Origin: Bacteroidaceae bacterium
GTDB lineage: Bacteria; Bacteroidota; Bacteroidia; Bacteroidales; Bacteroidaceae
NCBI GenBank assembly: GCA_017940605.1
Contig: JAGAYF010000041.1
Span: 1 to 57,550 of the forward strand
Direction: 5' to 3'
DNA: 57,550 nt
Shown here: in pieces, positions 42,275 through 52,728 of the stretch
How the letters are laid out: each line of letters starts with the position of its first letter
Position numbering within the stretch: the stretch's first letter is position 1
Made by a program: the position numbers and the translations under genes
The notes under the pieces: generated by a model
Told to the model about the DNA's origin: nothing
The model's database searches: none
What the model saw: only the letters and a program-made list of their open reading frames with translations

Positions 42275-43420
42275 TTATTCGCTCAAAGTAGAAATGGCAA
42301 CGCGGTTCCAGTCAGGCTCGCTGAACATATTTCCTACGCCCTGGCCCTCAGCCTCGATGCGACTGGAACTTATTCTGTATTTCTTGATGAGCAGGCTCTT
42401 CACAGCCTCGGCGCGTGCCTTGGCAAGCTTGGCATTGATTTCCGCACTGCCTTCCGGGGAAGCATAGCCCTTGATAACCACCTTGCTGTTGGCGTGATTC
42501 TTCAGGTAAGTGGCAATACGCTCCACGTTGGGGTACTGCGATGCGGCCACAACCGACTTGCCCTGTGCGAAAGTCACTACGCTCTCCAAATTGTTGGTGC
42601 TCGATTTTTCCGTCACCTTGACAACCTCGGGGGCTTTGTTGCGGCAGTCGTTCAGCTGGCGCTGCAAATCCTTCACATTGGCCTCAGCCTGTGCCTTTGC
42701 GTTGTTTGCGCTGTTCAGGCTGGTGCGCAGGTCGTTTATCTTTGCGTTCAGCGCATCCACCTCGGCCTGATCGTACAATTTGGCAATCTGGAAATTGTTC
42801 GTACCGTTGCTGTTCTTGAACTTATAGGTCACTCCAGCCAACAGACTCAGCGCGCTCTTGTTCACATTGTAGCGAATCCAGTCGTTGTTGTCGGTAACGT
42901 TCCACGTAATGGCCGGTTTGATATTAATCTGCCATGCTTTGGCCTCGCCCAGGTTGAAATTGAAATTTAGGCCGGCCTTGGAAGCCATGTAGTTGTGGTC
43001 AGAGCCACCTCCCACGAAGTCATGTCCCCATCCTGCGCCGAAAACGGCCACCAACTCGAGGAAGCGGGGCGTTCCCTTATAGCCTGCGATCAGGTTGTTC
43101 AGGTTTACCTGGCCCAACAGGTTTACATTGAGCACGTCAAACGTTGTCTTGCTGTGCACACCCGTCAGATGCGTCGTATTGAAGCCTGTTTCGCCTTCAA
43201 CGGCCAAGCCCAGGATGGGCGTTATCTGCTTAGCCAGTGTCAGGTTGGCCACGGGACGCATGTCGCTGAAGAAAGCGTGGTGTGCCGAGGGCGTTACCAC
43301 TCCGCCGGCCAAGCCTACGGAAATGTTGTCGGTCAACTTGCTGCCCTTAACGGTCACCTGAGCGTTGGCAGCCACTGCGCCCAACACGAGAGCGCAACAT
43401 AAGGTAAATAATTTCTTCAT
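42275..43420 (-). CDS. OmpA-family outer-membrane protein
   Basis: 381 residues: signal peptide (MKKLFTLCCALVLGAVAANAQ), a beta-barrel to ~205, a short coiled-coil linker (ALNAKINDLRTSLNSANNAK region, ~215-255) and a C-terminal OmpA/MotB peptidoglycan-binding domain (VVIKGYASPEGSAEINAKLA, then ISSSRIEAEGQGVGNMF). Tethers the outer membrane to the wall, as major OmpA-like proteins of Bacteroidetes do. Monocistronic with promoter and terminator. Confidence 0.93.
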   Translation of the reverse strand: MKKLFTLCCALVLGAVAANAQVTVKGSKLTDNISVGLAGGVVTPSAHHAFFSDMRPVANLTLAKQITPILGLAVEGETGFNTTHLTGVHSKTTFDVLNVNLLGQVNLNNLIAGYKGTPRFLELVAVFGAGWGHDFVGGGSDHNYMASKAGLNFNFNLGEAKAWQINIKPAITWNVTDNNDWIRYNVNKSALSLLAGVTYKFKNSNGTNNFQIAKLYDQAEVDALNAKINDLRTSLNSANNAKAQAEANVKDLQRQLNDCRNKAPEVVKVTEKSSTNNLESVVTFAQGKSVVAASQYPNVERIATYLKNHANSKVVIKGYASPEGSAEINAKLAKARAEAVKSLLIKKYRISSSRIEAEGQGVGNMFSEPDWNRVAISTLSE

Positions 43421-43569: not shown

Positions 43570-44967
43570 TCAGATGACTGCCCCCCATTTTTTCAGCGTA
43601 CTTACCAATTCGGCCGTATCGATGCCCTGCACATCCCTGCCCGTGCGCACGCTTTGGGCCGCCGCAGCACCGGCAGCCTGCCCCATGCCCATGCAACTGG
43701 CCTGCACGCGCAGCGACGCCAGCGCATGCCGGTCGGCCGACACACAACGCCCTGCCACCAGCAGGTTAGGATAGTCCTGGGCTATCATGCAACGGTAGGG
43801 GACGTAGGCCGCCTGCTTCAGGTCGGAACGCACCTGGCCCGCACCCTTGCTGGAATGGATGTCAATGGGGTGCGCCCCACGCGAAACGCTGTCCTCATAG
43901 CGATAACCGCCCAGGTATTCCTCGGCCGACACCGTATGCACGCCCAGGATTCTCCTGGACTCACGTATGCCTGCCTGGGGCGCGGTGGAGGACACGTAGC
44001 AATGCTTGAAGTCCTCGAAATTCTCGCGCAGGATGCGTACAAACTTGAATATATCCTCCCGCAGGCGGCATTCCGCCTGCATAAACCCACGGTTGTCGCA
44101 CGCGTCGGCCGCCAGGCGCGTCATATTCACGGCCACCGACCCCTTGTGCATGACATTATTGAACCACGGACCGCCAAAGTCGGGCAAGTCCGCGCCTTCC
44201 TCCTTCATCTTCAGCAACTTTTCGCGCACGGGCAGGCATTGGCTCGGCCCTGAGCGCCCGTCGTGGTACATGCACCTCATCATCATGTCCGAATCCGTCT
44301 TCACGCCCGACAGGATGAAACAAAACGACGACGGCTGACGCTCACCGTCGGCATCGGGCTGCATGGGCACGTGCGCCATGTGGGCCAAATCGGCATCGCC
44401 CGTGGCATCGACAAACGTCTTGCCCTCAATGGCCTCAGCCCCGTTCTTATTATGGATAATGATCTGCTGCAGGCGGTTTCCGTCCATCGTGCAACCCGTC
44501 ATGTAGGAGTGCATGTACAGGTCCACGCCTGCCTCGAGCACCATGCGCTGCATGCACAGCTTGTACAGTTCCACGTCAAAATCGACGTTGCCCTTGGGAG
44601 TCTCAATGTAAGCCCCGCCCATGCTTTCCAGCCGCTTGATGAATTCCCAGGGAATGCCCCCGATGACCAGGTGTCCGTTAAAAGTAAATTCGCTGATGGG
44701 CATCACATAGCCCATCGTGGCCATGCCGCCCAGGAATCCGTAGCGCTCCACGAGTGCCACCTTCATTTTCTGCCGGGCCGCTGCCAATGCCGCCATGACT
44801 CCTGCCGGACCGCCGCCGCACACCACGACATCGTAGCTGCCCACAACGGGCGGTTGCTGCACGGACGGCCTTTCACCGCTGCACGAGGCCAATGGGGTCG
44901 ACACGGCCATGGCCGCAACGCCGGCCACGCCACCGCGCAAGAATGAACGTCTTGAAATTTTATCCAT
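43570..44967 (-). CDS. Tat-exported FAD-dependent oxidoreductase, probable lipoprotein
   Basis: 465 residues. The N-terminus has a twin-arginine signal (KISRRSFLRGG) whose hydrophobic core ends in LASC, a lipobox with Cys near 29, so a Tat-secreted lipoprotein is likely. Then the FAD Rossmann motif VVVCGGGPAGVMAALAAARQ (~47-66), ERYGFLGGMATMGYVMP, VDATGDADLAH (~190) and near the C-terminus LLVAGRCVSADRHALASLR, all typical of the FAD-dependent oxidoreductase family PF12831. Substrate unknown; many homologues sit in glycan-use loci. Monocistronic here. Confidence 0.88.
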   Translation of the reverse strand: MDKISRRSFLRGGVAGVAAMAVSTPLASCSGERPSVQQPPVVGSYDVVVCGGGPAGVMAALAAARQKMKVALVERYGFLGGMATMGYVMPISEFTFNGHLVIGGIPWEFIKRLESMGGAYIETPKGNVDFDVELYKLCMQRMVLEAGVDLYMHSYMTGCTMDGNRLQQIIIHNKNGAEAIEGKTFVDATGDADLAHMAHVPMQPDADGERQPSSFCFILSGVKTDSDMMMRCMYHDGRSGPSQCLPVREKLLKMKEEGADLPDFGGPWFNNVMHKGSVAVNMTRLAADACDNRGFMQAECRLREDIFKFVRILRENFEDFKHCYVSSTAPQAGIRESRRILGVHTVSAEEYLGGYRYEDSVSRGAHPIDIHSSKGAGQVRSDLKQAAYVPYRCMIAQDYPNLLVAGRCVSADRHALASLRVQASCMGMGQAAGAAAAQSVRTGRDVQGIDTAELVSTLKKWGAVI

Positions 44968-45386: not shown

Positions 45387-48300
45387 TCAGCCCTGTGTCA
45401 CCGTGGCTTGTCCGTCAGGGCCGGCCTCTATCCTTATCTGCGGGGCAATGCGTTCCTGCATCAGCGGATGCTGGCTCAGCACGCACACCACCCGCCCCGA
45501 CACGCCCGGCCAACGGCCCAGCATGCCCACCAGTTCGTTGAGGCTTCTGTCGTCCCACTGCGCAAAGCTGTCGTCTATCCACAGCATGTCCACGCCGGCA
45601 TCCTGGCTTTGCCATGCCGACAGGCCCATGGCCAGTGCCATGCACGCCAGGCTGCGCTCGCCTCGCGTCAGCGCGCCCATAGGGCGCGTCACGTCCATCA
45701 TGTCATGGTCCTGCCACTCCAGCGACAACGAGTCGGCATGGGCCAGCAGGGCATAGCGCGGTGCCAACACCTGCAACTGGCGGTTGGCATGGGCCACCAA
45801 CGTGGCCAGGACGCGCGACTGAACCATCGTCCTGAAGTCCGTTCCGTCCTGCCCCGACATGGCCTGGTCCAGCTGCTCCCAGCGCAACAGTTTTTCCTTC
45901 AGTTCTTTTTTTCTGTCTTCCTCGGCCGCCATCTCGGCCAGGCAGCGGCGGTGGCCGTCCAGCACAAGATGAATGTCGGCCAGTGCCCGGCGGTCCTCCT
46001 CTATTTGGTGCGTCAGGCGGCCGCACTGGCTTTCCAGTGCCGGCTGGTTCTCCATTTCGCCAATATGGTGTTCCGATTGCCTCAGGGCCACCAGTTCCTG
46101 TTCGGCACGCTCATAGTCCCTCTGAGCCTCGCGCAGGGCTTGGTGGCAGGCCTGGACTTTTTCCCTAAGCCCACTCCAGTCGCGGCCATCGGCAAACAGG
46201 CGTTCCAATTCCGCAAACTGCACCGGCGAATGGAGGGCATTGAACTGCGCCATGCGGGTGTCCAGCGCGGTCTGCACCTCCTTCAATTCCTGCTCCGTGC
46301 ATTGCTGCTCCTGCGCCAGGGTCGCTATGCGTATGCCCCAAGCGCGGGACTGTTCCTGCAACTGGTGCAGCCGCTCATGCACCTCATCCTGGGCCTGCGA
46401 CGCCTGCGCCACGCGATCCGACGACTTGCACTCAACCGCTTGGGGGCTTTCGTCCCTGAACATCTGGCGCAGCTCGCCATCATTCTTGGACAGGCTGTCG
46501 CGCAGGGCCTGAATGGCTGCCTGCACATCCTGAATCTCGGCCTGGGTGCGCTGCACCTGACGGTTTTGCGCGGCCAGTTCCCGCTCTGTCAGCAACAGGT
46601 TCTGCTCATCGGCCTGCAGCGACTCGTTGTAGGTGGTCCACGTCTGCCCCATCTGGTCCAGCAGTGCCACCAACTTGTCATAGCTATGGATAACGTCCTC
46701 CTTCCATCCGGTAATGGAGAGCAGGGGTTCTATCTTGCCCGTTATCTCGGCAATCTTGCCCTTGGCCGTGCTGATGGCTTCCTCATGGCGTTCCACAAGA
46801 GCCTGGCACGCCCTGACCTGAGCCTGTATGGAGTGCTGCTGCTCGGCATTTTGCAACTGCCTGAGCGTCACAGCCTGAATATCCTTGTTGATGCGGTTTA
46901 TTTCACCCTGATGAAGCAGGAACTCGCGGCTGCTCCTGGCACTGTCGTCCTTTTCGCGCGTGGCATTGTCGAGCAACAGTGCCAATATCTGGGCACGGGT
47001 GGCGCGGTTGGCCGTCACCGACGCATCGGCAAAGCTGCCATCCAGATAGACATACCGCTGCCATTCCTCGCGATCGCCCTGCAGGAATTTTTCTGCACTG
47101 ATCTTGTTCTTTCTCTTCTCATTCAGCAAGACTTCGGTCGAGACTATCTCGTTCTTCAACGCATGAAGATCCTCCCTGGCCTGCCTGAGCCGCGCTTCCG
47201 CCTCTTCGTAATCCGATTTCAGCTTGAGGTGAAGTTCCCCCAAGGCTTGCTCCGTCTCAGAGTGGAACGGATGGTGCGTTCCGCCGCACACGGGACACGG
47301 CGCGCCCTCCTTGAGTTGGGCGCGAAGCTCGCCGATGTGCATGTTCTGGCTGAGAAAATAGCTTTGGTAGGCATTTTCGCACCGCTTTTCGCCCTCGGCA
47401 CACACCGACTCCTGCTGTTGTTTCTCTTTCCCCTTTTGCGCCAGTTGGGATTCCAATTGGCGGATTTCGGAATCCAATGCCCCGATTTCATCGAACTCGA
47501 GGCAAATCTTGTTCCACAGGCTCTGCGCCACGCGGATATCGCCTTCTTTCTGATGGATGCTGATGGCATTTTGCTGAATGGCCTCGGCATCCATTCCCTC
47601 GTTGGCCATAGCATGCAAGTTCAGTTGGGCCTGGTGCGTGCCCAGGGTTTCCTCCAGTTTCACCGCATCCTCGTGCAACGTCCGCAGGGCTTGTTCAAAC
47701 TCTGCCTTGGACTGATTCTCTTTCTCTATCTTACGTTGGTGTTCCTGTATGCCCAATACATTTTCATGGATGCGCGACAGTTCGTATTTCACTTGTTCAA
47801 ACCGTTCCAGCAGGGGGCGGTGCATGACCATCGTGTTCAGCATGAGGTTGGTCTGCTGGCGATGGTGCTCCAGGCGTTCCCTTTCCGCCGTGCCTTGTGC
47901 CAACTCCTGTTGCAGCGCGTCCAGGAGGTGTTGCTTGGCTTGCAGGCTGTGTTCCTGCTGGACAAGCATTGTCTTCAGGCTTTTATTCTCAGCCACAAGC
48001 TCGTGCCCCTTGCGCAGGTCGGCCTGGCGGTTTTCCTTTTCCTGGACCACCTGCTGCAACAACGTGCTGGCCGACGAAAATTCCTTTTCCGCATCATCAA
48101 TCTGACCCTGCAGCGCGCGTTGCCGCTCGCGGAAATCATTCAGTTGCTCACGCAGTTGACGGATGCGGGCCGACTTTTCCCCCACGATGCTGTATGCGTG
48201 CTGGAATGGCAGCAGTTCATCGTATCTTTCCAACTCAGCCTGCTGCGACATCAGGCCATGAAAATTCTTCTGGGCCTCGGCCAGGGCTGTCTTCCGTTTT

Positions 48301-49082
48301 CCCAACTGGTTCTCGGCCACATCGTAGCGCTCCTTCCAGGCCAATTTTCCCTTGGTCCGCGCCAGCTCGTTTTCGGCCAGCCTTATCTTGTTGCCCAACA
48401 GTTGGTATTCATCTTCCTTCTGCCTTAGGGTGGATTCATTCAGTAGGCGGTGGGCCGACATGCCCTCCAAGCGGTTTAACAGCGCATCATATTCCTGCCG
48501 TGCCTGTTGTCTTCTCTCCTTTACGCGGTCCGAAATTTCTCCATAGCCTTCCGTCCCCGTCAAGTCCTCCAGAATTTTCACTTTTTCCGCATCGGGAGCA
48601 TCGATAAATTGGAAGAATCGTTGTTGCGACAGGAAAAAGGCGGTGGAAAACTGTCGGAAACTGAGTCCCACGGCCTGGGCGGTCTTTTCCAAGGCCTCCG
48701 CACCCTGCCAAGCCCTGCCCTTGGGGTCTATCATGCGCAGGGAATGGGACGAAATCAGTTCAGGGTCGTGTCCATCGGCCCGTCCGACGTGCCATTCGGC
48801 GCAATACAGTTCTCCGCTGGGCACAGAAAAGGTGATCTTGCAGTTTCCTTTCCCGTTTTTCGGCCCAAGCAGTTCCGCAGGGGCGATACATCCCGTTCCG
48901 ATGGGGGCAGGCTGGTTGTACAACGTCATGCAAATGCAGCTTACCAATGCCGCTTTGTCTGCTTCCCTGTCGGCAACGACGGCCATGAGGTCGGCATGGC
49001 GCAGGACGCCCTGTGAAAAATCCATGACTTGGTGGCCGACAAAGGATGCAAGGTTCGTAATCTCTATTTTCTCGATTCGCAT
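45387..49082 (-). CDS. sbcC: SbcC-like SMC/Rad50-type protein with degenerate ATPase motifs
   Basis: 1231 residues from MRIEKIEITNLASFVGHQ, the family start; the longer upstream frame overlaps sbcD. Architecture is that of SbcC/Rad50: N-terminal ATPase lobe, long coiled coil, zinc hook APCPVCGG near 594, second coiled coil, C-terminal lobe. The Q-loop region FFLSQQRFFQFIDAP and EDLTGTEGYGEISDRV are kept. But Walker A, normally GPTGAGKTT, reads ADREADKAA at ~36-44; the signature SGGE reads TRGE (~1141); Walker B hhhhDE reads MLWIDD (~1164); the H-loop His is Gln in VLSQHPLM (~1199). No frameshift or stop is present. The intact partner sbcD lies 19 bp upstream. It could be a structural, ATP-independent or altered SbcC. 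Confidence 0.88.
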   Translation of the reverse strand: MRIEKIEITNLASFVGHQVMDFSQGVLRHADLMAVVADREADKAALVSCICMTLYNQPAPIGTGCIAPAELLGPKNGKGNCKITFSVPSGELYCAEWHVGRADGHDPELISSHSLRMIDPKGRAWQGAEALEKTAQAVGLSFRQFSTAFFLSQQRFFQFIDAPDAEKVKILEDLTGTEGYGEISDRVKERRQQARQEYDALLNRLEGMSAHRLLNESTLRQKEDEYQLLGNKIRLAENELARTKGKLAWKERYDVAENQLGKRKTALAEAQKNFHGLMSQQAELERYDELLPFQHAYSIVGEKSARIRQLREQLNDFRERQRALQGQIDDAEKEFSSASTLLQQVVQEKENRQADLRKGHELVAENKSLKTMLVQQEHSLQAKQHLLDALQQELAQGTAERERLEHHRQQTNLMLNTMVMHRPLLERFEQVKYELSRIHENVLGIQEHQRKIEKENQSKAEFEQALRTLHEDAVKLEETLGTHQAQLNLHAMANEGMDAEAIQQNAISIHQKEGDIRVAQSLWNKICLEFDEIGALDSEIRQLESQLAQKGKEKQQQESVCAEGEKRCENAYQSYFLSQNMHIGELRAQLKEGAPCPVCGGTHHPFHSETEQALGELHLKLKSDYEEAEARLRQAREDLHALKNEIVSTEVLLNEKRKNKISAEKFLQGDREEWQRYVYLDGSFADASVTANRATRAQILALLLDNATREKDDSARSSREFLLHQGEINRINKDIQAVTLRQLQNAEQQHSIQAQVRACQALVERHEEAISTAKGKIAEITGKIEPLLSITGWKEDVIHSYDKLVALLDQMGQTWTTYNESLQADEQNLLLTERELAAQNRQVQRTQAEIQDVQAAIQALRDSLSKNDGELRQMFRDESPQAVECKSSDRVAQASQAQDEVHERLHQLQEQSRAWGIRIATLAQEQQCTEQELKEVQTALDTRMAQFNALHSPVQFAELERLFADGRDWSGLREKVQACHQALREAQRDYERAEQELVALRQSEHHIGEMENQPALESQCGRLTHQIEEDRRALADIHLVLDGHRRCLAEMAAEEDRKKELKEKLLRWEQLDQAMSGQDGTDFRTMVQSRVLATLVAHANRQLQVLAPRYALLAHADSLSLEWQDHDMMDVTRPMGALTRGERSLACMALAMGLSAWQSQDAGVDMLWIDDSFAQWDDRSLNELVGMLGRWPGVSGRVVCVLSQHPLMQERIAPQIRIEAGPDGQATVTQG

Positions 49083-49101: not shown

Positions 49102-50352
49102 TCATTTCGCAGCCGCCTCGGAAGGACCTTGCTCGCATTCGCGCTTGACTTCGGCAAAGAGTTGGGCCGTTTCATCGGGCATATCCTCTCGGAAACACCG
49201 TTTATAGGCCTCTCGCGCCAGTTTGGCCACATTCAGGGGCGCACATAATTCCTCTTCTTCCACGGAATCCGCATAGGCAGGCCGTGTACCGTCGGCATTG
49301 ACGCGCACAATCCTGCACAGACGCACCTGCCGGCGATCCGCCTCGGCTTGCAGTGCGCGCAGTTGGGCTGGTTCGGCCGTTTTCTCGGCCACCATAATTT
49401 CCACATAGGGACAACCGTCGGCCGAACTGCCTTTCTCACACAAGGGAAAGCGTTTCAACTCATCCAACACCTCCTCAAAACGGGCCGCGCCCTGCTGCGG
49501 AATACTTAAGAGCGGGCACAACGGCTGGTATTCCTCAAACCGGACCGCTGCGCCGCCGTCCGGCGAAATTTCCACGACGTTCACGCCGTGCTTGTAGGCT
49601 TTCTCGCCAAACGAAAGGGGGACGGCACTTCCGCAATACCGCACATTTTCCAAATGCTCGGCCGCCATGGGCTTGTGGATGTGCCCAAGGGCCACATAAG
49701 CCGCATCGAGCGCCACTTCCTGCATGTCAACGCCGACCAATCCCTTGATAACGGGAATCTTTCGGTCCTCACACAATTCCCTGAGCACCCCTTCGACAAA
49801 CACATGGGCCATCAGGACGACGGGCACGCCTTTCCATTTTTTCGATGCGCCCTTCAGCAAATCCTTCATCAGCTGCGCCGCGCCTTCCTCCAGGGAATTC
49901 CCCCCGACATCGCCCCTCCGCAGATAGGGAGCGGCCACAATGACCGCCTGGTCGTCGGCATCTTTTCCCTCAATGGGGATATAGAGGTCATCCAACAGGA
50001 CGCGCCCTCCCTCATCGCGCGGAAGGATACCGCGCACCTGTACTCCGATGCGCCGGTACAGCGCAGCCTGCGCCTCCAGCCTGGCGGCCGAGTCGTGGTT
50101 GCCCGATGTGATGATGATTCTCAGTTGCGGATTTTCCTGCGTCAGCCTGTCCAGGAACTCCCACAGGAGTTTCTCGGCCTTGGGCGCAGGCTGGGCATTG
50201 TCAAACACGTCACCCACGACAAGCAGGGCATCGGGGCGTTCGCTGCGCACCATTGCGAGCAGCCAAGCCAGGAAATGGGCGTGCTCGGCCGTGCGCTCGT
50301 GCTGATGGAACACGTTTCCGATGTGCCAGTCGGCTGTATGTATGATTTTCAT
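49102..50352 (-). CDS. sbcD: SbcD/Mre11-type exonuclease subunit
   Basis: 416 residues. Manganese-dependent nuclease partner of SbcC that trims DNA ends and hairpins. All phosphodiesterase motifs are intact: HTADWHIG (~5-12), VVGDVFD (~50), SGNHDSA (~85), LMAHVFVEG (~190) and GHIHKP (~225). A C-terminal SbcD-type domain follows. It is 42 bp after the HD-phosphodiesterase gene; a weak GAATTTTG box at 50358 might give a separate promoter. Confidence 0.94.
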   Translation of the reverse strand: MKIIHTADWHIGNVFHQHERTAEHAHFLAWLLAMVRSERPDALLVVGDVFDNAQPAPKAEKLLWEFLDRLTQENPQLRIIITSGNHDSAARLEAQAALYRRIGVQVRGILPRDEGGRVLLDDLYIPIEGKDADDQAVIVAAPYLRRGDVGGNSLEEGAAQLMKDLLKGASKKWKGVPVVLMAHVFVEGVLRELCEDRKIPVIKGLVGVDMQEVALDAAYVALGHIHKPMAAEHLENVRYCGSAVPLSFGEKAYKHGVNVVEISPDGGAAVRFEEYQPLCPLLSIPQQGAARFEEVLDELKRFPLCEKGSSADGCPYVEIMVAEKTAEPAQLRALQAEADRRQVRLCRIVRVNADGTRPAYADSVEEEELCAPLNVAKLAREAYKRCFREDMPDETAQLFAEVKRECEQGPSEAAAK

Positions 50353-50394: not shown

Positions 50395-52533
50395 TCAGGA
50401 ATGTTTCCCCTTGTGGCCGTGATAGTAGTAGCCTTGCCCGTTCTTGAAGAAGGATTTCCCTCGGTGGCGCGCCGGAGAAGCCTCCTTTTTCTCGTTGATG
50501 GTGGGATAGCTGATGCGCGTGTGGTATATCGTCTTCAATGTCTGCACCAGGACATCCTTGGCCACCTGAACGTCGCTGAATGTCAAGGGGCAGCCCGACA
50601 GGTAGCCGTCCTTCACCTTGCCGTCCACGATGTTGTTGACCAGCGAGCGCAGGGACTCCTCGTCTATCGTCTTCAGGCTCTTCGATGCCGCCTCCACCGA
50701 ATCGGCAATCATGAGGATGCCCTGCTCCTTCGTCGATGGATTGGGCCCGGGATAGGTAAAGACCGACTCATCCACGGGTTCGTCAGGATGGGCGTTCTTC
50801 CATTTTATATAGAAATAGCCCGCCTTGGAACAACCGTGGTGCGTGGCAATGAAGTCCTTGACAACCTTGGGCAGGCGGTACTTGTCGGCCAGCTCCAGCC
50901 CGTCGGTCACATGCTGGATGATGATTTGCGCGCTGCGCTCCTCCGACAGACTGTCGTGGGGGTTCGTGCCGCTCTGGTTTTCCGTGAAATAGGCCGCATT
51001 CATTATCTTGCCAATGTCATGATAGAGCGCGCCGGTGCGCACCAGCAGTTGGTCGGCATCTATCTTGGCGGCAATTTCGCCCGCCAGGTTGGCCACCTGC
51101 ATGGAATGGTTGAACGTTCCCTGCGCCTCCTTCGACAGCTTGCGCAGCAACGGGTTGCTCACGTTGGACAGCTCGATCAGCGTAATGGGGCTCGTGAAGC
51201 CAAACACTTTCTCCAGTACAAACAGGAACGGATAGGCAAAGAGCAGCAGCACGCCGTTGATGGCACCCGAAATGTACCACGACGTATCCAGCATGCCGAG
51301 CGTATGGCCCTGGCTCAGCTCATATCCCAGCATGAACAGTTCCATGGCCACCGTGGCTATGAAGGCCGTTCGTATGAGCTGGGAGCGCGAAGTCAGCTGC
51401 TTCAGCGAATAGATGGCCGTCACGCCCGATATGAACTGTGTCAGGGCAAAGGTGTACGGCTCATGCAGGGCCAGCGAGGCCAGGACGATGGCTATGAAAT
51501 CCGTCACGAAAGCCGTGCGCGAATCCATGAACACGCTGACAAAGATGGCCACAATCGTCACTGGCAGGATGTACACGCTCTGCAGGTTGCTCTGCGCCAG
51601 CAGCGATGCCGCAATGGGAAAGACCGTCAGCAGCAGGTACAGCAGGCACATGCTGCGCAGGTTCTGCCAGTAGTCGCGCCGGTACAGGGCCAGGTAGACG
51701 GCAAATACCGTAAGCAGCATGAGCACGATGAGCAGCTTGCCGCCCATCTGCATCTGCTCGCCGCTCTTATTCTCGTGGCGGCGCACCGATTCCCGCTTCA
51801 TGCTCTCTATGATGCTCGCCACGTGGGGGGTCACGATGTCGCCGCGGTCCACAATCTTTTCGCCCGCCTGCACCATGCCGCTGGCATAGGTCACACTCAT
51901 GCGCAGTTCCTGTTGTTCCTGCCTCGTTTTCCTTACATCGGCCACGAGGTTGGGCATCAGGTAGTTGTTGATGTCGCAACGCGCCAGTATCTCACGGCTG
52001 TAGTGGGCCGAATCGGCCAGCGACAGGATGTTCACATAGGCCGAGCGCGTCGTATACAGGTTCTTCACCAGCCGGGGCGTGGCCGAAGTACCCTGCTCAA
52101 TGCGCACCGCCGTCAGGTTGCTGTCCAGCAGGGCCGCATGCTCCTCATTGTCCAGGATGCCGGCCGCATACACTTCGGCCAGGCTGTTCAGCAGGTAGCG
52201 CACGTACTCCTTCGGAATATTGTCGGCCTGCTGCGAGGCCATGTCTTTCTGGAAAGCCGCCATCTGCGTCTTCCCCACCGTGGTGTCCAGCTTGTAGTAG
52301 GGCTGGAAGCGGCTGAAGGCACTGTCCAGTTCCTCGCGTATGGCCTGCTCGCTCTTGTAGATGGGAAAATCATAGGCAGCCATGATCTGGCCGTAGCGCC
52401 AGGGCTTGCCTATCGTGTATTCATAGGTCATGGTACGTTCACGCGGCAGGAACAGCACGATGAGCACTGCCGCCGCCAGCGTCAGCAGCACGCGGAACAG
52501 CACCCCGCCGGAACGATGTCTGGATTCTGTCAT
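50395..52533 (-). CDS. 7TM-HD family membrane phosphodiesterase (PgpH-like)
   Basis: 712 residues from MTESRHRSGG; the upstream frame to 52641 crosses the promoter box at 52556 and is rejected. Order: one N-terminal membrane helix, extracytoplasmic 7TMR-HDED domain (~45-270), a block of about seven helices (~275-475), then a cytoplasmic HD domain with GALYHDIGKIMNAAYF near 503, KDFIATHHGCSKAGYF and MIADSVEAASKSL. PgpH proteins hydrolyse cyclic di-AMP; that activity is family knowledge, not shown here. Likely first gene of HD-sbcD-sbcC. Confidence 0.92.
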   Translation of the reverse strand: MTESRHRSGGVLFRVLLTLAAAVLIVLFLPRERTMTYEYTIGKPWRYGQIMAAYDFPIYKSEQAIREELDSAFSRFQPYYKLDTTVGKTQMAAFQKDMASQQADNIPKEYVRYLLNSLAEVYAAGILDNEEHAALLDSNLTAVRIEQGTSATPRLVKNLYTTRSAYVNILSLADSAHYSREILARCDINNYLMPNLVADVRKTRQEQQELRMSVTYASGMVQAGEKIVDRGDIVTPHVASIIESMKRESVRRHENKSGEQMQMGGKLLIVLMLLTVFAVYLALYRRDYWQNLRSMCLLYLLLTVFPIAASLLAQSNLQSVYILPVTIVAIFVSVFMDSRTAFVTDFIAIVLASLALHEPYTFALTQFISGVTAIYSLKQLTSRSQLIRTAFIATVAMELFMLGYELSQGHTLGMLDTSWYISGAINGVLLLFAYPFLFVLEKVFGFTSPITLIELSNVSNPLLRKLSKEAQGTFNHSMQVANLAGEIAAKIDADQLLVRTGALYHDIGKIMNAAYFTENQSGTNPHDSLSEERSAQIIIQHVTDGLELADKYRLPKVVKDFIATHHGCSKAGYFYIKWKNAHPDEPVDESVFTYPGPNPSTKEQGILMIADSVEAASKSLKTIDEESLRSLVNNIVDGKVKDGYLSGCPLTFSDVQVAKDVLVQTLKTIYHTRISYPTINEKKEASPARHRGKSFFKNGQGYYYHGHKGKHS

Positions 52534-52555
52534 TTCAGGTAGTCTATTTTCAAGG

Positions 52556-52563
52556 CAAAGGTA
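52556..52563 (-). promoter_or_regulatory. -7 promoter box for the HD-phosphodiesterase unit
   Basis: TACCTTTG on the minus strand, matching TAnnTTTG, 22 bp before the ATG at 52533. It decides against the longer start at 52641. Confidence 0.65.
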
Positions 52564-52728
52564 GCAATAAAAAACGAGAGAACGGGGAAAACCGCCATGA
52601 AATACGCCTTTGCACCCCATCACGCCCCACCGGCCCGACAAGTCCTACCGGCCCGGCAAGCCCTGTTTGCCCGAGCCGCCCCACAACGTCTCCCTGATTT
52701 TCACAGCCCCTTCCATCCCTTCCCCCAA

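Follow-up and report, generated by a model that had tools for sequence, protein, structure and literature searches.

In a 57,550-nucleotide stretch of a Bacteroidaceae bacterium genome (hereafter the window; contig JAGAYF010000041.1, assembly GCA_017940605.1), an sbcC-like gene encodes a protein of 1231 residues that has lost the Walker A motif, the signature and the Walker-B glutamate, and has kept the coiled coil and the zinc hook. We lean towards regarding this protein as a pseudo-ATPase SbcC, the coil-hook dimer of which would serve as an ATP-independent spacer or tether. In broader terms, coil and hook are likely to constitute a self-standing module, repeatedly freed of ATPase and nuclease in one Bacteroidales clade. 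The module is represented in two genera by a near-universal family of headless proteins, some of which carry the helix-loop-helix of SbcD in front, and the window protein would be a surviving intermediate. A selected role of their own for coil and hook is the simplest account, and the most likely one.

The reading frame runs on the minus strand from 49,082 to 45,387 without an internal stop. Motif columns were read from an alignment with 20 relatives and E. coli SbcC (6s6v_C). At the Walker A position (residues 37-45; 48,948..48,974), the window protein reads ADREADKAA in place of GxTGAGKST. The signature position (residues 1138-1142; 45,657..45,671) reads LTRGE instead of LSGGE, and Walker B and the D-loop (residues 1167-1177; 45,552..45,584) read LWIDDSFAQWD instead of LFIDEGFGNLD, with IDD for IDE, so that the catalytic glutamate is gone. 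In contrast, the Q-loop (residues 151-156; 48,615..48,632) retains its glutamine, Q153, when read against the canonical columns. The coiled-coil arms span approximately residues 206-1055 (45,918..48,467) and are interrupted by the zinc hook CPVCGGTHHP (residues 596-605; 47,268..47,297). An initial annotation, made from the letters of the window, had described the SbcC architecture, the uninterrupted frame, the CPVC hook, the Q-loop and the altered Walker A, TRGE signature and Walker B, all of which are borne out by the alignments. The same annotation had also listed the H-loop among the losses. The H-loop position (residues 1201-1206; 45,465..45,482) reads VLSQHP instead of VISHTE, with Q1204 at the place of the histidine. 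The histidine is thus probably lost too; however, this loss depends on the alignment and is the least firm of the four, because a histidine directly follows Q1204, and a crude motif flag scored the H-loop as present. The Walker A, signature and Walker-B losses stand independently of it. The lone lysine left in Walker A, to which the annotation had drawn attention, is uninformative. No P-loop was seen by eye in the other reading frames of the window at the Walker A site. With these residues gone, the protein is predicted to be unable to bind or hydrolyse ATP.

Profile searches place the protein within the SbcC family. NCBIfam SbcC models match it with E-values of 1e-40 and 6e-32, yet far under the model cut-offs. 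The nearest solved structure is E. coli SbcC 6s6v_C (E 5e-29), which aligns over residues 1-326, over the hook and towards the C-terminus. The SbcC profile that we built, with the window protein among its members, covers it from position 1 to 1243 of 1245. In G012, a canonical relative, Pfam recognises AAA_23 and SbcC_Walker_B; a Pfam scan of the window protein matched no domain, and in a PF13476 search of its own genome, a draft that is 73% complete, it scores weakly over the cut-off at 33.2 bits.

ATPase loss is uncommon among full-length SbcC proteins. Walker A, signature, Walker B, H-loop and hook are all intact in 55 of 62 surveyed proteins (11 from the window's genus, g1; 35 from genus g15; 2 others; and 7 of a more distant type), so that the motif loss in the window goes beyond chance. 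The seven ATPase-dead proteins are those of the window (G000) and of G004, G005, G008, G017 and G018 in the same genus, and of G143 in g15, a 2.92-Mb genome assembled as a single contig. Within the window's genus, the dead form accounts for 6 of the 17 members carrying this SbcC, among 19 genomes; of the others, G003 has a more distant SbcC that lies outside the motif survey, and G015 gave no SbcC match. The degree of loss varies. In G008, for instance, the P-loop and the histidine are kept, and the signature and Walker-B glutamate are lost. The CxxC hook is kept in all 62 proteins. Sequencing error is rejected as the cause, because degenerate motifs recur, with different letters, in six members of the genus and in G143, which is a single contig. 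In g15, 7 of 53 matching genomes were left unclassified as having a broken or incomplete gene (G454, G456, G468, G363, G464, G465 and G469). The G454 locus (L085) holds an otherwise full-length g15 sbcC with one TGA about 177 codons into the stop-to-stop frame, which is either an assembly error or a true break; this gene was left out of the coil tree and of the counts of 48 and 54 headless proteins given below.

Residues that are lost and residues that are kept fall in different parts of the window protein. Among 136 near-invariant columns, defined as those where 46 or more of 47 canonical SbcC proteins share one residue, it keeps 13/27 in the ATPase motifs, 27/44 in the rest of the N-lobe and 25/41 in the rest of the C-lobe, against 16/16 in the coil and 8/8 in the hook, counting the glycine that precedes it. 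In total, 65/112 head columns are kept versus 24/24 in coil and hook (Fisher p 2e-5, for sites that are not independent). The other six ATPase-dead proteins are similar, with 13-16/16 in the coil and 7-8/8 in the hook. Two canonical proteins on long branches, G462 and G043, which are themselves among the 47 used to choose the columns, show the reverse pattern (heads 108 and 111/112, coil 13/16).

Codon ratios indicate purifying selection in the dead lines, where they range from 0.06 to 0.15; they are contrasts rather than measurements, because synonymous change is saturated on these branches. Ratios obtained with IQ-TREE are 0.133 for the dead trio G004-G005-G017 (heads 0.136, coil 0.133), 0.05 for heads and 0.06-0.09 for coils in canonical groups, and 0.02-0.13 in five headless groups. 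Branch models revealed that heads are relaxed and coils are not in two dead lines: in G143, heads show 0.099 vs 0.032 (likelihood-ratio test [LRT] 25.6) and the coil 0.064 vs 0.104; in G018, heads show 0.150 vs 0.057 (LRT 13.4) and the coil 0.080 vs 0.131. The window branch, fitted on four species with a branch length at the cap, gives 0.127 vs 0.099 for heads (LRT 5.4) and 0.128 vs 0.119 for the coil (LRT 0.6).

ATPase loss arose more than once. On a tree of the coil region, the dead full-length proteins need four changes, or five if regain of the motifs is barred. The tree rejects a single origin of the seven taken together (p 1e-50), as well as one of the five that lie in the same part of the tree as the window protein (p 0.006). 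For the headless proteins the count is five, four of these changes being forced by well-supported branches, and one origin is again rejected (p 9e-5). The exact counts are soft, because the trees were quick, branches are long and composition is uneven.

Recurrent loss bears on whether these genes are simply decaying. A dispensable repair gene could be caught in slow decay before its first stop, and some data fit such a course: SbcD matches exceed the model cut-off in only 163 of the 399 genomes of family f1, so SbcCD is perhaps often dispensable in the family; heads are relaxed in dead lines; and the profile matches of G004, G005 and G143 stop 11-14 positions short of the end. We nevertheless consider slow decay improbable. 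ATPase loss occurred four or five times independently, with frame and hook kept each time, and one instance lies in a single-contig genome. The trio G004-G005-G017, moreover, is 41-53% identical across about 1200 codons without a stop, and neither the codon ratios of the dead lines nor the intact coil and hook columns of the window are those of a decaying gene. The same considerations support the proposal in the initial annotation that a frame kept despite motif loss reflects a retained non-ATPase function. The dN/dS check that it had suggested gave approximately 0.13, not a value near 1, on saturated synonymous change; this ratio, the open frame and the conserved coil and hook columns led us to reject a pseudogene.

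Related proteins also occur without heads. A coil search of the family retrieved proteins, mostly of approximately 840-1010 residues, in which both lobes are gone. These match the SbcC profile only from positions 182-232 to positions 1050-1098 of 1245 (approximate limits), with E-values down to 5e-159. A headless profile matches 129 of 139 genomes in genus g11 and 17 of 18 in genus g22, including every genome with a completeness of 90% or more and a contamination of 5% or less (18/18 and 11/11, respectively). Both lobes are absent at all 85 loci examined (70 in g11 and 15 in g22), and a profile search of the fetched stretches detected no SbcD beside the headless gene at any of them. Ten further headless genes are found in g15, for a total of 95 proteins, 89 of which keep the hook. 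In an alignment of 48 headless proteins (without G314, G338 and frames of 800 residues or fewer), W536, R600, L603, C609, C612, G613, H617, P618, W687, D694, R709 and R987 (G012 numbering) are kept in all; the hook of most headless proteins is C[ST]VC, not CP.C.

Against the headless profile, the coil of the window protein scores 5e-114. In an even sample of 393 genomes from the order, nothing but the window reached 1e-20, a negative that is soft because at most two candidates were scored per genome. A search of plasmids gave no match to the headless protein. The window SbcC is not itself headless, as both lobes are present in degraded form. Seven genomes (G190, G216, G229, G242, G400, G311 and G470) carry a headless gene together with a motif-complete SbcC and an SbcD; the headless gene is thus not a mere substitute for SbcCD. 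The sbcCD pairs of these seven genomes (L134-L138, L126 and L127) are of the more distant canonical type and look like a later gain by transfer.

In part of the headless proteins, the segment before the coil resembles the C-terminus of SbcD (hhalign 96.9%, E 2e-10), a level not approached by 60 column shuffles, which reach at most 2.4%. One headless protein of 927 residues was modelled with AlphaFold2 (mean pLDDT 80.6, pTM 0.31). The model features a disordered N-terminus, two helices (36-48 and 54-75) joined by a short loop, and then long helices with a loop at the hook and zero strands; its overall arrangement is unreliable because the pTM is low.

The partner gene, sbcD, lies immediately upstream of sbcC on the minus strand (49,102..50,352; 416 residues), in the order sbcD-sbcC, and ends 19 bases before the sbcC start. 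It was identified by profile match, by similarity to a solved SbcD (E 5e-28) and by alignment, and retains 13/13 near-invariant residues of the catalytic motifs, which confirms the intact SbcD reported by the initial annotation. Its C-terminal helix-loop-helix, which would bind SbcC, is encoded at 49,135..49,224, as judged from the alignment and from the same piece being fused to the coil in some headless relatives. In Mre11, this segment is described as contacting the base of the Rad50 coil (PMC7260605). The helix-loop-helix is recognisable in all six SbcD proteins scored, with 21-26 of 27 residues inside the canonical repertoire, and the window SbcC presumably still binds SbcD. The catalytic site varies among dead lines. 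G008 keeps 13/13 residues, and by eye G005 has all five motifs. G017 keeps 12/13, the changed residue being the last D of GDxxD, which varies in canonical lines too (for example, G332 and the second copy of G190). G004 keeps 11/13, with GNHD changed to GDSD, G018 keeps 10/13, and G143 keeps 7/13. Among 61 aligned SbcD proteins, damage to DxH, GNHD and GHxH is confined to lines that have already lost the ATPase; for G002 and G016, the first motif fell outside the stretch used there and is intact in a separate comparison.

SbcD of the window species may still cut DNA, without ATP gating, and this raises an alternative in which the pseudo-ATPase heads lock SbcD in an open, active state, so that it trims DNA ends or hairpins as an ATP-independent SbcCD nuclease. 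The intact active sites in the window, G008 and G005, the retained helix-loop-helix and the purifying selection on dead heads (0.136 in the trio) fit such an enzyme. We nonetheless see it as possible rather than probable, since G143, G018 and, in part, G004 have a damaged SbcD active site despite retaining coil and hook, and the search beside headless genes detected no SbcD. The charge of the heads also speaks against DNA binding in some lines. Head net charge is -11 in the window, -9 in G018 and -8 in G143, compared with -6 to +9 in 55 canonical proteins, whereas the heads of G008 (-2), G017 (-4), G004 (+3) and G005 (+3) fall inside the canonical range. The initial annotation had named a constitutively open scaffold for SbcD, or a tether, as candidate roles. 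For the same two reasons, damage to SbcD in some dead lines and the failure to detect it beside headless genes, a scaffold for SbcD is not the whole story; a tether fits, because two genera retain only the coil and, mostly, the hook. Its interpretation overall is thus partly supported.

An ATP cycle could conceivably be run in trans by a second ATPase that forms mixed dimers with this SbcC, and the gene for it could be missing because the genome is only 73% complete. We consider this very unlikely, as G004, G005, G008, G017 and G018, which are 93-99% complete, and the single-contig G143 each have one SbcC match, and SbcC heads act as symmetric pairs. The initial annotation had proposed looking for a second, canonical SbcC in the genome; a search with the window protein returned only itself, and none was found in the 73% present. 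In the PF13476 search, one further protein exceeded the cut-off, which by eye is RecN-like (L001), and one match lay below it.

Under the tether reading, the part still at work would be the long antiparallel coiled coil, with the zinc hook joining two copies into a dimer and the SbcD helix-loop-helix attached at the base of the coil. Such a dimer would hold two protein ends at a fixed distance without ATP and, in some lines, without a nuclease. The zinc hook reportedly dimerises constitutively (PMC6969161), and a dimeric rod would therefore be expected in the absence of ATP. Comparison of the lines suggests that the ATPase was lost before the nuclease, and the nuclease before the heads. We infer that tethering is the selected role. 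The coils, as well as some dead heads, including those of the window, are acidic, which favours a protein-protein link over a DNA-DNA link. DNA condensation by the coil was ranked low on account of the same acidity.

Several observations weigh against a tether. The fully intact SbcD active site of the window is not explained by a pure tether. Saturated synonymous change makes the ratio on the window branch rough, and its heads are barely more relaxed than its coil. Dead heads look constrained, as in the trio, and possibly have a job of their own. An acidic coil is no special mark, as canonical coils are equally acidic (net charge -33 in the window, with medians of -24 in headless and -26 in canonical proteins). 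Six of the 95 headless proteins, all of the short type with frames of 615-674 residues, have no hook, and the headless gene of G338, which was excluded from the set of 54 discussed here, is split into two frames. Conservation among the 48 aligned headless proteins is also incomplete: 35 retain W262, 11 retain P610 and 10 retain D301, which is Glu in 37. The helix-loop-helix pattern occurs in only 24 of 54 headless proteins, an undercount because near forms slip past a simple pattern, and is absent from a g15 clade beside nrdG and from part of g11. Finally, the window genome is a draft.

The system resembles SbcC/Rad50 with SbcD/Mre11 in the sbcD-sbcC gene order, the lobe-coil-hook-coil-lobe layout, the CxxC hook and the nearest structure, E. 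coli SbcC. It differs from them in that the window protein is without Walker A, the signature, the glutamate of Walker B and probably the histidine of the H-loop, and the headless relatives are without both lobes. Mre11/Rad50 (SbcDC) fusions are reported in viruses, plasmids and bacteria, and for two of them, from Anaerostipes and a Bacillus phage, that report notes that one P-loop NTPase segment went unobserved (PMC3175470). Headless proteins carrying the helix-loop-helix similarly join an SbcD part and an SbcC part in one chain and in the same order. However, the fusions described there combine an Mre11-like part with one or more ATPase segments, whereas headless proteins have at most the SbcD helix-loop-helix, the coil and the hook. 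An artificial headless B. subtilis SMC (residues 160-1037), which is reported to compact DNA in vitro (PMC4725763), likewise consists of coil and dimerisation domain with the heads absent; unlike that laboratory construct, the SbcC coils described here are natural and acidic. As in ABC proteins with a degenerate nucleotide-binding site (PMC7544095), catalytic ABC residues are lost and the protein is kept. In the proteins treated in that source, one site of a pair is degenerate, whereas here both sites of the homodimer would be lost. In the open full-text literature (most subscription papers and bioRxiv lay outside its scope), we found no description of a natural ATPase-dead or headless SbcC.

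Rad50/SbcC is usually seen as an ATP-driven gate for the nuclease, and a separate role of arms and hook is a standing question. The lines described here form a natural deletion series, in which the ATPase is lost, ATPase and nuclease are lost, or the heads are removed; the arms are kept throughout, as is the hook except in the shortest forms. Strains with the headless form alone make a head-free role of the arms directly testable, and headless proteins offer natural coil-hook material for structural work. An SbcC-like gene in these genera, furthermore, need not imply SbcCD repair activity.

Additional features were noted at the headless loci. The short frames without a hook are L128 (G055), L129 (G183), L121-L123 and L253 (G538), and the arms shorten in some lines. 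A gene identified by eye as hisS adjoins 28 headless loci on the opposite strand (upstream in 25, scored downstream in 3), and more may adjoin it, because the flanks extend only 1-2 kb. Five g15 headless genes adjoin an nrdG-like gene, also identified by eye. An N-terminus of the form M..[FLI]F..[KR] is found in 31 of 54 headless proteins (L054-L083 and L114-L153), followed by a polar or proline-rich stretch in those read; one may speculate that this M..FF.K-type N-terminus is a membrane or protein docking site. Window SbcC and SbcD both start without the motif.

A search of viral contigs returned no relative, and a viral origin was put aside. In genus g6, most of the listed SbcD matches are weak, and SbcCD is perhaps missing there. 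The neighbours of the sbcD-sbcC pair in the window have no apparent tie to SbcC function. All are on the minus strand, and they encode an OmpA-family protein (42,275-43,420), a FAD-dependent oxidoreductase with a weak match to a TAT signal (43,570-44,967) and a 7TM-HD phosphohydrolase (50,395-52,641).

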